A DNA stretch of 8,327 nucleotides from Nitrospinota bacterium (GTDB lineage: Bacteria > Nitrospinota > Nitrospinia > JACRGO01). Within the stretch, counting starts at the first letter, position 1; every line of letters begins with the position of its first letter. Below the pieces are notes generated by a model. The model saw nothing but the letters and a program-made list of their open reading frames with translations. It had not been told where the DNA came from and made no database searches. The position numbers were made by a program, and so were the translations under genes. Shown piece after piece: positions 1,408 to 7,927 of the stretch. Where the stretch lies: the NCBI GenBank assembly GCA_016212295.1, contig JACRGO010000025.1, forward strand, positions 1 through 8,327, given 5' to 3'.

Positions 1408-1440
1408 AACATTCGTGAACTAACTATAGCAGAAGGATGA

Positions 1441-1580
1441 AAATCCCCCTTGGTCCCCCTTTTCCAAAGGGGGAATTTTCCAATCCCATTTTTTTTAAAG
1501 GGAAAATGTAGCTACTCAGGCACAAAGACCAAAAGGCAACATAGAATTCCCCCTTTGAAAAAGGGGGGCAGGGGGGATTT
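1441..1580. repeat. 140-bp MITE-like element with 36-37 bp terminal inverted repeats
   Basis: The left end (1441-1477) and right end (1545-1580) are imperfect inverted copies of each other, both running AAATCCCCC inward to GGGGGAATT. Each arm is itself a hairpin of CCCCC/GGGGG with short T/A flanks (about 1456-1474 and 1549-1567). The core of about 67 bp is AT-rich and has no gene. The element fills the aroB-suhB gap and its right end stops 2 bp before the suhB ribosome-binding site. No transposase is present and I see no convincing target-site duplication. Related GC-rich palindromes occur at about 4042-4113 and 7781-7850. Confidence 0.8.
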
Positions 1581-1582
1581 AA

Positions 1583-1587
1583 AAGGA
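1583..1587 (+). promoter_or_regulatory. ribosome-binding site of suhB-like gene
   Basis: AAGGA lies 7 nt before the ATG at 1595 and supports this start. It sits directly after the end of the 1441-1580 inverted-repeat element, so the right-hand hairpin of that element would be close to the initiation region in any transcript that reads through from aroB. Confidence 0.6.
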
Positions 1588-1594
1588 TTTTCAG

Positions 1595-2377
1595 ATGAAG
1601 AAATTTTTCGACATAGCAGTGAAGGCCGCCAGGGAATCCGGCAGGATACAGATCGAGCGGAGCAAGCACATTGGAGAGGTCCGCTGCAAAGGCGATATAA
1701 ACCTGGTCACGGAAGTGGACCTGTTGTGCGAAAAGACCATTAAGGAGATAATATTAAAGGAATTTCCCGGCCACTCCTTTTTAGGTGAAGAGGGAGGGGA
1801 GGGGGGGGCGGCAAACGCGCCTTTCAAATGGATTGTGGACCCGCTTGACGGCACTACCAATTACGCCCACGGGTTCCCGGTGTATTGCACATCCATCGCC
1901 CTGGAGGCGGAAGGGACGGTGGCCTTGGGAGTGGTTTTCGATCCAACCCGCAACGAACTTTTCACCACCGAGCGCGGCAAGGGCGCGTTTTTGAACGGCG
2001 AAAGGATTTCAGTCACCCAGCGTGAGAATTTGATTGAGTGCTTGCTTGCCACCGGGTTCGCGTATGACGTTCGTGACACCAAGGTGGACAATATCGAAAA
2101 TTTCACCAGATTCATCAAACGAGCCAGGGCGGTCCGCAGGCCGGGTTCCGCCGCCCTGGACCTGTGTTATGTCGCGTCCGGCAGACTGGATGGATATTGG
2201 GAAATGAAGCTTCGCCCATGGGACTCAGCCGCCGGGCATCTCCTGGTAATTGAGGCCGGTGGGAAAGTGACCCTCTTTGACGGGAGTGAATATTCCATAT
2301 ATACTCCAGAAATCCTGGCCTCAAATGGCCGGGTCCACGACAGCATGGTGGAAATCTTAACCCGGACAAAGTCTTAG
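1595..2377 (+). CDS. suhB: inositol monophosphatase family protein (SuhB-like)
   Basis: Mg2+-dependent, Li+-sensitive-type sugar or inositol phosphate phosphatase, 260 residues, the normal family length. The metal- and substrate-binding motifs are present: GEE (E65) at 64-66, DPLDGTTN (82-89, with D82 and D85 as metal ligands) preceded by WIV, and WDSAAG (209-214, D210). The N-terminus has the usual AxxAGR-like helix (AARESGRIQI, 11-20). Related enzymes hydrolyse inositol-1-phosphate, NADP, fructose-1,6-bisphosphate or histidinol-phosphate, and SuhB of E. coli also acts in rRNA antitermination; the sequence does not say which applies, so the symbol is a family-level assignment. An unusual glycine-rich stretch (GGEGG) just after E65 is encoded by a near-continuous G tract (1792-1808). 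The gene is likely read from its own or the aroB promoter through the inverted-repeat element upstream. Confidence 0.92.
   Translation: MKKFFDIAVKAARESGRIQIERSKHIGEVRCKGDINLVTEVDLLCEKTIKEIILKEFPGHSFLGEEGGEGGAANAPFKWIVDPLDGTTNYAHGFPVYCTSIALEAEGTVALGVVFDPTRNELFTTERGKGAFLNGERISVTQRENLIECLLATGFAYDVRDTKVDNIENFTRFIKRARAVRRPGSAALDLCYVASGRLDGYWEMKLRPWDSAAGHLLVIEAGGKVTLFDGSEYSIYTPEILASNGRVHDSMVEILTRTKS
1792..1808 (+). other. G-tract in suhB-like CDS (possible G-quadruplex or slippage site)
   Basis: Within the codons for the glycine-rich loop following the catalytic glutamate, the coding strand reads GGG, A, GGGG, A, then eight G in a row. This can supply four runs of three G with one- or two-base loops, the classical quadruplex pattern, and the G8 run is a typical replication or transcription slippage site. 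No function is shown by the sequence. Confidence 0.5.
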
Positions 2378-2378
2378 A

Positions 2379-2455
2379 AAACCACAGATTACGCGGATTA
2401 CACAGATTTTATAAAAAAATAATCTAATCTGCGCCTTCTGCGTAATCTGTGGTTT
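2379..2455. repeat. 77-bp inverted repeat between suhB-like gene and kinase gene
   Basis: Two 30-nt arms (2379-2408 and 2426-2455) are inverted copies. The outer 16 bases, AAACCACAGATTACGC, match exactly, and the inner part matches at the CAGATT end. The loop is a short AT-rich stretch. The arms also contain an internal repeat of the GATTACnC unit. The element begins 2 bp after the suhB stop and could fold into a long hairpin in the transcript, but has no T tract, so I do not call it a terminator. Repeats of this appearance are scattered in intergenic regions of many environmental bacteria (recollection, not searched). Confidence 0.75.
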
Positions 2456-3962: not shown

Positions 3963-4113
3963 TTCGCCGAAGACGTTAAGTTCATAGTATAGGAATTTCC
4001 ATTTTTAATCTTTAAAAATCAAATAGATATATAAATCACACACCCCTTGATCCCCCTTGCCAGGGGGGAATTTCTAAGTTATTCCCCCTTAAAAAAGGGG
4101 GTCAGGGGGATGT
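3963..4113 (+). repeat. long dispersed repeat, copy A
   Basis: About 150 bp, nearly the same as the reverse complement of 7781-7927. From 3977 to 4113 I count about nine substitutions, one single-base indel, and a 6-8 base extra segment in copy A near its right end. The unit is composite: an AT-rich left part (TAAGTTCATA to ATAGATATAT) and a right part made of GC-rich palindromes (about 4042-4113) related to the arms of the element at 1441-1580. The left edge is fuzzy (CGCCGAAGACG against CGCCCGAAGGACG in copy B); the right edge is sharp, after GGGGGATGT. Together with 3761-3899 it accounts for most of the geneless stretch 3749-4209. In 4114-4209 I see no gene or clear terminator. Confidence 0.85.
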
Positions 4114-4209
4114 CAATTATTTCCTGCTTTTGCGTGTCCGCACACAGACAGGTGGTTTCGGCAAAGCCGCTCAATGTTCTATTATCAGTCCGCCAGAAGG
4201 GCGTTAAAT

Positions 4210-4557
4210 TCAGGCGTGCTTCGGCTTTTCCTTGACCTTTCCAGCGGCCTCCAGCACTGCCTTGCGGATTTCCTCAAAAGCGGTTTTCTTGAACAGCGCT
4301 ATGCTCATCGAGTGCTGATAACCGGCTGGAATTGAATTAAGCGCCAAGGCGAAGATGTCCTCTGTGCACATGGCGCAAAGGCAAAGGGACTCCATGCCGG
4401 GCAGCGCCTCCTCCATCGCTTTCTTGACCAACTCCTCATTCTTGTTCTTCATGTGGTCCATGCAATGCCCCAGGACCATGAATTTTTTTTCACTTCTTGG
4501 CAGGGGCCTTGAGTATTCCTCCATGCCGTCTTCCGTTTCCTCCAGTCCCTCGTCCAT
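4210..4557 (-). CDS. ComFB-domain protein (late competence ComFB-like)
   Basis: Small acidic protein of 115 residues. The central part carries the ComFB signature: NKNEELVKKAMEE (39-51) followed by CLCAMCTEDIFALALN (59-74) and IPAGY (76-80). That matches the family pattern of a CxxC pair, an Asp, an ALALN segment and a PxxY. Cys32, Cys59, Cys61 and Cys64 could bind metal, which is inference. ComFB was named from the Bacillus comF operon; cyanobacterial members have been described as c-di-GMP-binding proteins, so a signalling role is possible here. The first 25 residues are acidic and low in complexity; the last 10 are lysine-rich. Start ATG 4557 is supported by AGAGGGGA about 7 nt upstream. 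It has no visible partner: its 5' side faces the group II intron, and on that side the next minus-strand gene is duf58. The domain call is from motif recognition, without a search. Confidence 0.75.
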   Translation of the reverse strand: MDEGLEETEDGMEEYSRPLPRSEKKFMVLGHCMDHMKNKNEELVKKAMEEALPGMESLCLCAMCTEDIFALALNSIPAGYQHSMSIALFKKTAFEEIRKAVLEAAGKVKEKPKHA

Positions 4558-4755
4558 CGAATGTCCCCTCTAAAAAAACAAGTAAAGAGTATTCTACAAT
4601 ATTAACCTGGGAATTTACAGGGGAGAATTTGGCGGCAAGAATGAGGCGCGTCCGTTCTTGATTCTCATGGGCTACTACGAACGAGCGTGGATGCTTTTCA
4701 CCTAAACTTTTTGAAAAGTTTAAGATAGGGGGCGGGACGCCCGCGCTACCTGGAA
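4558..4755. other. intergenic segment with nested stem-loops, 5' exon side of the intron
   Basis: No gene supported. Three structures are visible: an imperfect stem-loop (4623-4666; GAGAAT and CAAGAA pair with TTCTTG and ATTCTC, 13-nt loop, 7-nt bulge); an 8-bp perfect stem TAAACTTT/AAAGTTTA with loop TTGA (4703-4722); and GCGGG/CCCGC with loop ACG (4732-4744). The last ends 11 nt before the intron. Class IIC introns are known to insert just downstream of hairpins such as terminators, so the 4703-4744 hairpins may be the insertion signal. An apparent minus-strand reading frame across this segment is not supported. Confidence 0.55.
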
Positions 4756-5187
4756 GTGTGCCAGGCATGTTCAACAGCTTTGGGGTGTAAGTCCCCTACA
4801 CAACCTGATGGAGGTGAAGTGTTAGCGAAGCGCAAGGGCGTCGTCGCGAGGCGGGGTCTGAAGGAAGCGTGGAGCAAAGCCGCGACCTGATGAACAAGAA
4901 CCGGATATGAGGCAGTCCTGGTCGGACGAGTATGCTTCTGGACACGAAGCCCAAATCCATCAAGGGCCTTGGCTGTAAATCCGGCGGGAGCGCGGTGAAG
5001 GCGGTTGAGCTTACCCTGGGAGGTCTGCGCTATGTCCCGGAATCGGGACTGGGACGGCCGTGAGGCTGTCCGGCCGTAGCGTAGAAGTCAGCAGCGGGCA
5101 TAGCGCCTGGCAGGAAACAGGGAAGGCCCGAACGGTGCCTCCGACAAGGTCGGGGGTAAATGGCGGGGATGGAAGGAGGCGATTCTC

Positions 5188-5642
5188 ATGAGTGTCAAAC
5201 GGCGGAAAATCCAGATTGGAACTGGCCTTCAAGACGGAGGGCGGGGGTGAAGCCCCGGAGACCGCTAATGAAGGGACCGTGACGCTCAGGACGGAGCGAG
5301 GCTCTGGAAGCCCGGCGGAAGTTGAATCACTGATGGAGAAGGTATGCGAGCGCGCAAACCTGATACATGCGTATCGCAAGGTCAAGTCGAACAAAGGGAG
5401 CCCCGGCGTTGATGGAATGGGAGTTGATCAACTATCAGGATACCTCGAACGACACTGGCCGAGGATTCGAGTTTCATTGCTGGAAGGGAGCTGCAAGCCC
5501 AAGCCGGGGGGCGGTATGCGCGGCACTGGCCGCCGCCTCCTCGAAAGGGCCGTGGCGGATGGCCCATAGCAAGGCCATGCAGGCAGCTTTCCCTGACTCT
5601 TTCTTTGAGGAACTCGGTCTACCCAAACTGGTGATTGGATAG
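5188..5642 (+). pseudogene. ltrA: truncated, frameshifted group II intron reverse transcriptase/maturase
   Basis: Intron-encoded protein remnant. The likely original start is ATG 5188, with GGAGG 9 nt upstream, giving MSVKRRKIQ; one extra base near 5215 breaks the frame. The next frame then reads LELAFKTEGGGEAPE and on through the N-terminal reverse-transcriptase region: LMEKVCERANLIHAYRKVKSNKG, SPGVDGMGVDQL, YLERHWPRIRVSLLEGSCKPKP. At the G run near 5505-5511 the sequence jumps, in another frame, to what I recognise as the family C-terminus: SSKGPWRMAHSKAMQAAFPDSFFEELGLPKL, ending at TAG 5640-5642. The finger-palm motifs including YADD, and most of the maturase domain, are missing: roughly 300 residues of a protein of about 420. 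An apparent GTG start at 5192 is an artefact of the frameshift. It cannot be an active reverse transcriptase. Confidence 0.9.
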
Positions 5643-5657
5643 ACGCTTAACCAGCCG

Positions 5658-5692
5658 AACCGCCGTGGTACGGACCCGTACGCCCGGTGGTG
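5658..5692 (+). ncRNA. group II intron domain V
   Basis: The lower stem ACCGCCG (5659-5665) pairs with CGGTGGT (5685-5691), including the conserved G-U wobble at G5662-T5688. This places the catalytic triad C5661-G5662-C5663. CGC rather than AGC is the triad known from class IIC structures. A two-nucleotide bulge region separates this from the upper stem GTACG/CGTAC with a four-base loop. The fold looks complete, suggesting that the ribozyme core was not affected by the deletion in the protein gene. Confidence 0.8.
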
Positions 5693-5792
5693 TGACAGGG
5701 AAAACCCGCGAGGGTCAACCTATGTCGATTTGCTCCCATTCATTCCACTATTCCATCTTTCCAACATTCCAACAAAACGCCGCCATTACTTC

Positions 5793-6677
5793 CTACAACC
5801 TCTTCTCCCTCATCCTGAAAAATTTCATTATCGGCTCGATATAGGGCTTGTCCGTGAAGATATCTATCTTGTCCATGGACATGGAGCGGAAGAGCTTGTC
5901 CCTCTCCTTTAATTCCCGCTTATACAAAGCGGCGAATTCCTTTCTGGCGGCTGGATCGGAGGTGTCGACCACGATCCGCTCCCCGGTCTCAGCGTCATGC
6001 AGTTCCACTAAACCCACGTCCGGCAAGGTCGTCTCCCTTGGGTCGGTGATGGTGATTGCGATCAGGTCATGGCGCTTTCTGAATATCCGCATGGCCTTTT
6101 CGTGTCCCTCCGCAATGAAATCAGAGATAAGAAAGGAAACCGTCTTCCGGCGGCAGACCTTGGTCAGAAATTCCAGAGGCGCGGAAAGGTCGGTGCCCCG
6201 CTTTTCATCGGACCTGGGATCATGGGAGAGGATGGTCTTGATGACCCCCCACACGTGCGACCTTCCTTTTTTCGGCGGGATGTATTTCTCTATCCGGTCG
6301 GAGAAGACGACAAGCCCTACTTTGTCGTTATTCTTGATGGCCGAGTAGGCGAGGATGGAGGCGATGGTCGCGGCGCGGTCGTTCTTCAGTTCTCCCACTG
6401 ATCCGAATTCGCCTGAGGAGCTGACGTCCACCATGAGCATCACCGTGAGTTCCCGCTCCTCCCTGAAGGTCTTGACAAAGGGGGCGTTCATCCTGGCGGT
6501 CACGTTCCAGTCAATGGCGCGGATGTCGTCTCCTGCCTGGTACTCGCGCACGTCCTCGAACTCCATGCCCCGGCCCCGGAAGGCGGTCCTGTACTCACCC
6601 GCCATGATGTCGTTGACCAGGTAATTGGTCTTGATCTGGATGCCGCGTATTTTCTTGAGGAATTCAGGGGAGATCAC
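5793..6677 (-). CDS. DUF58 family protein (von Willebrand factor A-like)
   Basis: 294-residue cytosolic protein with no signal peptide or membrane helix. The DUF58 core is unmistakable: RGRGMEFEDVREYQAGDDIRAIDWNVTAR (34-62), followed by a von Willebrand A-like domain opening with MLMVDVSSSGEF. D84, S86 and S88 form a DxSxS metal-ion-dependent adhesion site motif. The C-terminal part (LISDFIAEGHEKAMRIFRKRHDLIAITITDPRE) is also typical. The start is GTG 6677; its GTGA overlaps the stop codon of the upstream moxR by 4 bp, so the two are translationally coupled. Family members nearly always sit beside MoxR ATPases and are thought to act with them in protein-complex assembly or metal insertion; a substrate is not known here. 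The further Bat genes (BatA/BatB-type membrane proteins) often found downstream are absent; the intron lies there instead, in antisense orientation. Confidence 0.93.
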   Translation of the reverse strand: MISPEFLKKIRGIQIKTNYLVNDIMAGEYRTAFRGRGMEFEDVREYQAGDDIRAIDWNVTARMNAPFVKTFREERELTVMLMVDVSSSGEFGSVGELKNDRAATIASILAYSAIKNNDKVGLVVFSDRIEKYIPPKKGRSHVWGVIKTILSHDPRSDEKRGTDLSAPLEFLTKVCRRKTVSFLISDFIAEGHEKAMRIFRKRHDLIAITITDPRETTLPDVGLVELHDAETGERIVVDTSDPAARKEFAALYKRELKERDKLFRSMSMDKIDIFTDKPYIEPIMKFFRMREKRL

Positions 6678-7657
6678 GGGACTTCGATCCTATCGAAGAT
6701 TTTCTTTATGGCCGCGTCAGGCGACATCTCTTCAGCCTCCGCCTCGTAGGTAAGGATGACGCGGTGGCGGAGGACGTCGAATCCAATGGTCTTCACGTCC
6801 TGCGGCGTTACGTATCCCCGGCCCTGGAGGAAGGCGTGGGCCCTGGCGGCCCTGTTGAGGTATATGCTGGCCCTTGGGGAGGCGCCGTATTGGATCATCC
6901 CCTCAAGCTCGGCCAGGCCGAAGGATTTAGGGTCGCGCGTGGCGAAGACCACGTCCACTATATATGCCTCGATTTTTTCGTCCATGTAGATTGAGGAGAC
7001 CGCCTCGCGAGCCTTGAGGATGTCCTTGGGGTCTATGACGCCATGGATTTCCGCCGCTTGGCCGGTTGCCATCCTGCGCATGATGCTGAGTTCCTCGGCC
7101 TTGGCCGGGTAGGTGACGCTTAGCTTCAGCATGAAGCGGTCCACCTGGGCCTCCGGCAGTGGATAGGTCCCTTCCTGCTCTATTGGGTTCTGGGTGGCGA
7201 GAACCAGGAAGGGTTTTGGCAGTTGAAAGGTCTGGTCCCCGATGGAGACCTGTTTTTCCTGCATGGCCTCAAGGAGGGCGCTCTGCACCTTCGCGGGCGC
7301 CCGGTTGATCTCGTCCGCCAAAAGGATATTGGTGAAGACCGGCCCTTTCCTGACCGTGAATTCCGAGGTCTTGGGCTGGTAGATCTGTGTCCCGATTAGG
7401 TCGGCAGGGAGGAGGTCCGGCGTGAATTGGATCCGCTGGAACTGGGTCTGGATCGCCTGGGAGAGGGTCTTCACCGCCGTGGTCTTTGCGAGTCCCGGCA
7501 CCCCCTCCACCAGCACGTGTCCGTCGGATAGCAGGCCGATGAGGAGCCTTTCGATCATGTAACGCTGGCCCACGATCACCTTGTCGATTTCTCGCAGGAG
7601 ATCGGCGATAAACCGGCTTTCCTGCCGGACCATTTCAGTTATTGCCTTTACGTCCAC
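6674..7657 (-). CDS. moxR: MoxR family AAA+ ATPase
   Basis: 327-residue AAA+ ATPase of the MoxR subfamily (AAA_3 type), a chaperone-like protein that remodels or activates client complexes using ATP. Visible motifs: Walker A EGVPGLAKTT (51-60), Walker B LLADEIN (112-118), sensor 1 ATQNP (154-158) followed by IEQEGTYPLPEAQVDRF, with R174 a probable arginine finger, and sensor 2 GASPRAS (258-264) in the C-terminal lid domain. All catalytic residues are present and the length is normal. The start is GTG 7657, with a strong GGAGG (7667-7671) 9 nt upstream. It is the first gene of a two-gene operon with duf58. The 123 bp upstream, up to the repeat at 7781, should hold the promoter, but I find no convincing -35/-10 pair. 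The symbol is used at family level. Confidence 0.95.
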   Translation of the reverse strand: MDVKAITEMVRQESRFIADLLREIDKVIVGQRYMIERLLIGLLSDGHVLVEGVPGLAKTTAVKTLSQAIQTQFQRIQFTPDLLPADLIGTQIYQPKTSEFTVRKGPVFTNILLADEINRAPAKVQSALLEAMQEKQVSIGDQTFQLPKPFLVLATQNPIEQEGTYPLPEAQVDRFMLKLSVTYPAKAEELSIMRRMATGQAAEIHGVIDPKDILKAREAVSSIYMDEKIEAYIVDVVFATRDPKSFGLAELEGMIQYGASPRASIYLNRAARAHAFLQGRGYVTPQDVKTIGFDVLRHRVILTYEAEAEEMSPDAAIKKIFDRIEVP

Positions 7658-7780: not shown

Positions 7781-7927
7781 ACATCCCCCTTTGTTAAGGG
7801 GGAATATCTCAAAAATTCCCCCCTGGCAAGGGGGAATCAAGGGGGGTGTGCTTCATATATCTATTTGATTTTAAAAGATTAAAAATGGAAATTCCTATAT
7901 TATGAACTTATCGTCCTTCGGGCGGAC
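7781..7927 (-). repeat. long dispersed repeat, copy B (inverted relative to copy A)
   Basis: The reverse complement of this segment matches 3963-4113 at about nine of ten positions over some 125 aligned bases. The outer part 7781-7850 is the GC-rich palindromic block (CATCCCCC, GGGGGAAT, ATTCCCCCC, GGGGGAAT); 7851-7910 is the AT-rich part. It lies 124 bp upstream of moxR and 93 bp beyond the end of the antitoxin gene. In 7928-8019, between the repeat and the antitoxin stop codon, I see no gene and no convincing terminator. Confidence 0.85.

Follow-up and report, generated by a model that had tools for sequence, protein, structure and literature searches.

A single-copy, ORF-deleted group IIC intron, probably a recent fossil, in an intergenic palindromic repeat of a Nitrospinota bacterium

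The locus and the boundaries of the intron

The window, meaning the whole stretch of DNA analyzed, is 8327 bp long and makes up an entire contig (C196) of a draft genome (G000; 3.74 Mb in 237 contigs, 90.5% complete). An intron of 974 nt lies on the forward strand at 4756-5729, between a ComFB-like gene (4210-4557, reverse strand) and a DUF58/MoxR gene pair (5793-7657, reverse strand), and runs antisense to both neighbors. An inverted repeat, CCCCCTT...AAGGGGG, recurs several times in intergenic parts of the window (1440-1590, 4040-4115, and 7785-7850) and is probably a small palindromic element of the dispersed type. The features of the intron and its flanks are listed below with the evidence used to place them.

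4698-4755, forward: 5' exon, an arm of a dispersed palindromic repeat, including the hairpin GGGCG-GGA-CGCCC at 4730-4742 (repeat copies in G000)
4750-4755, forward: IBS1, CTGGAA (pairs with EBS1 at 6/6 positions)
4756-5729, forward: whole intron, 974 nt, GTGTGCC...CTATGTCGAT (Rfam, homology to relatives, and flanks)
4756-5019, forward: domain I, approximate limits (RF02001 at 4840-5010, 120.9 bits; consensus fold of 33 relatives)
4936-4941, forward: EBS1, TTCTGG, in an 8-nt loop (pairing and family covariation)
4978, forward: EBS3, an A that pairs with T5730 (IBS3) (covariation with the first 3' exon base)
5020-5128, forward: domains II and III, approximate (RF01998 at 5049-5128, 37 bits)
5188-5518, forward: N-terminal maturase/reverse transcriptase remnant, start ATG at 5188 (TIGR04416, 2.4e-8; codon comparison with relatives L041, L045, L047, and L048)
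5519-5530, forward: junction of the large deletion, with about 0.87 kb of the reverse transcriptase and maturase core gone (intron lengths; tblastn pieces)
5529-5642, forward: C-terminal maturase remnant, in a different frame and with a stop codon of its own (tblastn; codon comparison)
5657-5692, forward: domain V, with CGC triad at 5661-5663, G5662-U5688 wobble, and CG bulge at 5681-5682 (alignment of 32 relatives; triad and wobble by reading)
5694-5726, forward: domain VI, with branch-point A5722 eight nt from the 3' end (alignment and direct reading)
5730-5740, forward: 3' exon, TTGCTCCCATT, the second arm of the interrupted repeat (flank comparison)

Both ends of the intron can be placed exactly, at the positions proposed in a first-pass annotation of this DNA. 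Homology to dozens of elements, from plasmids as well as genomes, starts precisely at 4756 (intron position 1), and eight relatives (L041, L045, L048, L051, L053, L059, L063, and L064) align through position 974, which is 5729. The terminal sequences GTGTG and CGAT agree with the group II consensus of GUGYG at the 5' end and AY at the 3' end. In a genome of the same genus (G001), the equivalent intron 3' ends read ...CCTATCCCGAT before passing into differing flanks. Seven such ends were found there (contigs C514, C509, C508, C277, C190, C527, and C19), six of them at contig ends, and the G001 intron is probably multi-copy with its body collapsed in the assembly.

With the intron removed, the flanks join to read ...GATAGGGGGCGGGACGCCCGCGCTACCTGGAA/TTGCTCCCATT (the slash marks the junction). 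The repeat that supplies the 5' flank (GCGGGCGGGACGCCCGCGCTCCC...) recurs on contigs C23, C81, C147, C173, C87, and C50. The copy at G000:C23:3996-4052 is empty, reading ...GCGCTCCTAGGAA/GTGCATCCATT with 88% identity across the 57 nt before the junction, and further empty copies lie on C81, C147, and C173 (...GCGCTCCCAGGAC/TTGC). Given the exact ends of homology and the empty repeat copies, the insertion was precise, as expected for reverse splicing.

Group IIC introns insert beside a hairpin, usually that of a transcription terminator. The hairpin at 4730-4742 ends 13 nt upstream of the 5' junction and carries no T-run. The same placement is seen in the relatives, and 5' flanks across the family fold strongly (mean -19.6 kcal/mol, versus -12.9 kcal/mol in control flanks). 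Relatives L047 and L053 are likewise inserted in sequences that are repeated elsewhere in their genomes, and the genome of L047, an intact element, contains an empty paralogous site. These flanks suggest that part of this IIC lineage targets repeat hairpins rather than terminators.

Exon recognition and the ribozyme

EBS1 pairs with IBS1 at all six positions, two of them as G-U. Across 33 elements, the first four positions of this pairing give 111 matched pairs, compared with 65.5 ± 4.7 after shuffling; none of 5000 shuffles reached 111, and no alternative register scores equally well. Position 4978, within the motif GUAAAU, is the column that covaries best with the first 3' exon base, forming a Watson-Crick pair in 23 of 28 relatives and an A-T pair here. 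Exon recognition is of the group IIC kind, through EBS1-IBS1 and EBS3-IBS3.

Domains I to VI are present in order, the first three recognized by Rfam and the last two by alignment to relatives and by folding. The covariance-model check suggested in the first-pass annotation succeeded for domain I (RF02001) and for domains II-III (RF01998, against a cut-off of 35 bits), but the domain V model RF00029 had no match in the 3' part of the intron, even in a 221-base search, so domains V and VI were settled by comparison with relatives. This segment is mostly 80-93% identical to that of intact relatives, which together with the exact boundaries bears out the earlier proposal that the RNA ends and domains V and VI are kept, and the bulged branch-point A5722, within the usual seven or eight nt of the 3' end, is common to the relatives. 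An extra G in domain V was considered as possible damage and rejected, since several intact relatives have the G together with a matching C (L033, L035, L037, L052, L060, and L062). In domain VI, A-U has replaced G-C at one stem pair, a change of both bases that preserves the pairing.

Domains I-III were compared with those of 33 relatives, almost all of which encode a full-length maturase. The window differs at 3 of the 107 columns that are invariant among the relatives (5073, 5104, and 5105), while individual relatives differ at 0-5, and it forms 94.5% of the consensus-fold pairs (relatives, 91.7-100%). Judged in this way, the ribozyme departs from invariant columns no more than those of relatives with intact proteins. 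Its worst blemish is a change of UA to CG in the internal loop of domain III (T5104 to C and A5105 to G), a position unchanged in 33 of 33 relatives.

Membership in group IIC is well supported by Rfam, the EBS1 and EBS3 pairings, the fold, and the relatives, as the first-pass annotation had proposed; the element operates, or once did, in the manner of other IIC introns, and its own mobility is lost. Among proteins of solved structure, those nearest to the protein of L048, an intact relative, are reverse transcriptases of group IIC, the best being GsI-IIC RT (E = 1.8e-148). The remnants of the intron's own, destroyed protein match TIGR04416 and class C-like proteins, and that protein may have been a class C maturase/reverse transcriptase lacking an endonuclease domain.

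The maturase gene

The maturase gene survives as roughly 100 codons from its N-terminal part and, in a different frame, some 37 from its C-terminal end, close to the N-terminal quarter and roughly 35 final codons originally reported. A tblastn search with the L048 protein recovers matching pieces for residues 9-107 and 412-455, and the intron measures 974 nt against 1871 (L048), 1875 (L045), and 1947 (L041). The loss had been described as a single clean deletion within the ORF, which is incorrect: there are three lesions. A T inserted at 5216-5217 throws the gene out of frame (ATT GGA ACT, compared with ATG GAA CTG in L047); a 27-nt in-frame deletion at 5500/5501 removes QPV[K/R]RVEIP (AAG CCC/AAG CCG); and after GGT ATG CG about 0.87 kb is lost, the sequence resuming in a different frame with the last ~37 codons. 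With these lesions, the intron encodes no functional protein, and the gene is dead.

In a relaxed-selection comparison, the N-terminal remnant had a residual of -5.3 percentage points, with relatives ranging from -9.8 to +5.9. A scan of contigs with this remnant as the query gave no matches, and an alignment of intact relatives replaced it as the contig-search query.

We considered whether the true locus holds an intact maturase gene that was collapsed during assembly. The genome is a draft in 237 contigs, and in the same-genus genome G001 the multi-copy intron 3' ends do lie at contig ends. However, collapse at the large junction could not produce the 1-nt insertion or the 27-nt deletion, and the draft contains no second copy that could have been merged. 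We consider such an artifact very unlikely.

Copies and potential helpers

Matches to group II reverse transcriptases in G000 fall at three loci: contig C142, contig C3, and the window itself. The one intact enzyme is encoded on C142 and shares 32% identity with a same-class protein. It belongs to an apparently intact intron of another class (L002, G000:C142:8774-12463), in which RF02005 matches at 787-1023, the reverse transcriptase is 458 aa long, and an RF00029-like end at 2575-2736 scores below the cut-off. We rejected this protein as a same-class helper for the window intron because it sits in an RF02005-type intron. The C3 locus (about 28505-29360; L133 2005-2860) is a second group II remnant, in which the reverse transcriptase core has been deleted in frame within an open frame; it ends in a domain V/VI-like segment followed by CTACCCGAT and is 5'-truncated, with no recognizable domain I.

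Neither a second full-length copy of the intron, which the first-pass annotation had proposed searching for, nor an intact maturase of the same class was found in the 237 contigs of the G000 draft. The draft also shows no trans-mobilized family, meaning several ORF-deleted copies sharing breakpoints alongside a driver protein. A search of 77 genomes of the phylum yielded, outside the intron's own genome, no more than short matches to it. Separately, a class-mate genome (G004, L020, about 2345-2415, reverse strand) holds a domain V/VI-like fragment that lacks an intron body, close to a match to Chlorobi-RRM RNA.

These results bear on whether the intron is still alive, splicing and moving with the class C maturase of another element supplied in trans. 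In Thermosynechococcus elongatus, driver proteins move ORF-less introns in this way, and the layout of those introns is the same: a large ORF deletion that spares both ends of the gene, one additional nucleotide, and another, smaller deletion (PMC2882425). The window intron also retains its ends, the EBS1 and EBS3 pairings, domain V, and the branch-point A. Nevertheless, it is present as one copy between genes, two bases of domain III that are otherwise universally conserved are altered, and the draft yielded no intact same-class maturase, so we regard a live intron as unlikely. The earlier suggestion that a relative's maturase might mobilize it finds no support in G000, where there is one copy of the intron, the C142 reverse transcriptase is of another class, and that of C3 has lost its core.

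Conservation of the ribozyme despite loss of the ORF might instead mean that the host has co-opted the remnant RNA, perhaps to serve as a structured RNA or a terminator. The phylum-wide search reveals no conservation in related genomes, however, and recent loss of the ORF accounts for the state of the ribozyme; we consider co-option extremely improbable.

Interpretation and comparison with known introns

Taking the single copy, the lack of a same-class protein in the draft, and the intergenic position together, we favor a recently fossilized, ORF-deleted group IIC intron, to which we assign a probability of roughly 80%. A young fossil is a better description than a functional ORF-less intron because the surrounding DNA is intergenic and offers no host gene for splicing to restore. 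A mobile IIC intron would have reverse-spliced into the palindromic-repeat hairpin between two chromosomal genes, guided by the hairpin, EBS1, and EBS3. Its maturase/reverse transcriptase gene would then have been destroyed by the 1-nt insertion, the 27-nt deletion (between short direct repeats), and the ~0.87 kb deletion, leaving an immobile single-copy element with a nearly complete ribozyme, presumably awaiting decay.

The state of the ribozyme speaks against a fossil. The terminal branch of the window intron is 0.16 changes per site, yet only 3 of 107 invariant columns have changed, so the RNA is better kept than expected of a long-dead element, which would allow for activity until recently or for selection that maintains splicing. 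The draft, 90.5% complete in 237 contigs, could also be missing a helper or sister copy. Splicing is anatomically possible in principle: the remnant could fold and, if transcribed and aided by a foreign class C maturase, perhaps splice.

In bacteria, ORF-less introns are rare, and almost all occur alongside related introns whose protein can serve them; C.te.I1 of Clostridium tetani was the sole exception known at the time of review (PMC4424553). The window intron might be a second such case, an autonomous ORF-less IIC intron at a repeat hairpin that splices without a cognate maturase in its genome, but we think this quite improbable.

Among the closest known systems are the TeI3a-t introns of T. 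elongatus, which have lost ~1.5 kb of ORF but keep its two termini, and which carry an additional U as well as another, smaller deletion (Mohr et al., 2010; PMC2882425). As there, most of the window intron's ORF is deleted between N- and C-terminal remnants, an extra nucleotide breaks the frame, a second small deletion is present, the RNA domains are kept, and EBS and IBS are matched to the exons. The TeI3a-t introns, however, are CL/IIB1 introns, 17 copies derived from one deletion, and have driver proteins in the same genome (PMC2882425), whereas the window intron is group IIC, has one copy, has no same-class protein in the draft, and has not proliferated. Compared with GsI-IIC and other class C introns, it shares hairpin-guided insertion, a small ribozyme, EBS1 and EBS3 recognition, and the domain V CGC triad, and the proteins of its relatives are nearest to GsI-IIC RT; it differs in lacking the reverse transcriptase core and in using, in place of an intrinsic terminator, a hairpin from a dispersed palindromic repeat without a T-run. 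Decaying bacterial introns, fragmented RmInt1-type ones among them, have similarly lost mobility through damage to the element (PMC4496777). The window intron differs from them in retaining all six domains and both ends of its RNA.

ORF-deleted leftovers are a known and ordinary stage in the life of mobile introns. Calling this intron the most unusual feature of the sequence was an overstatement, given that bacterial introns of the same layout have been described (PMC2882425), rare as they are (PMC4424553). The general picture of group II elements is unchanged by it. It does provide an example of a IIC intron inserted in a dispersed palindromic repeat instead of a transcription terminator, and, as a IIC intron apparently caught soon after the loss of its maturase, with its RNA parts, exon pairings, and empty targets, it would offer a snapshot of how mobility is lost.
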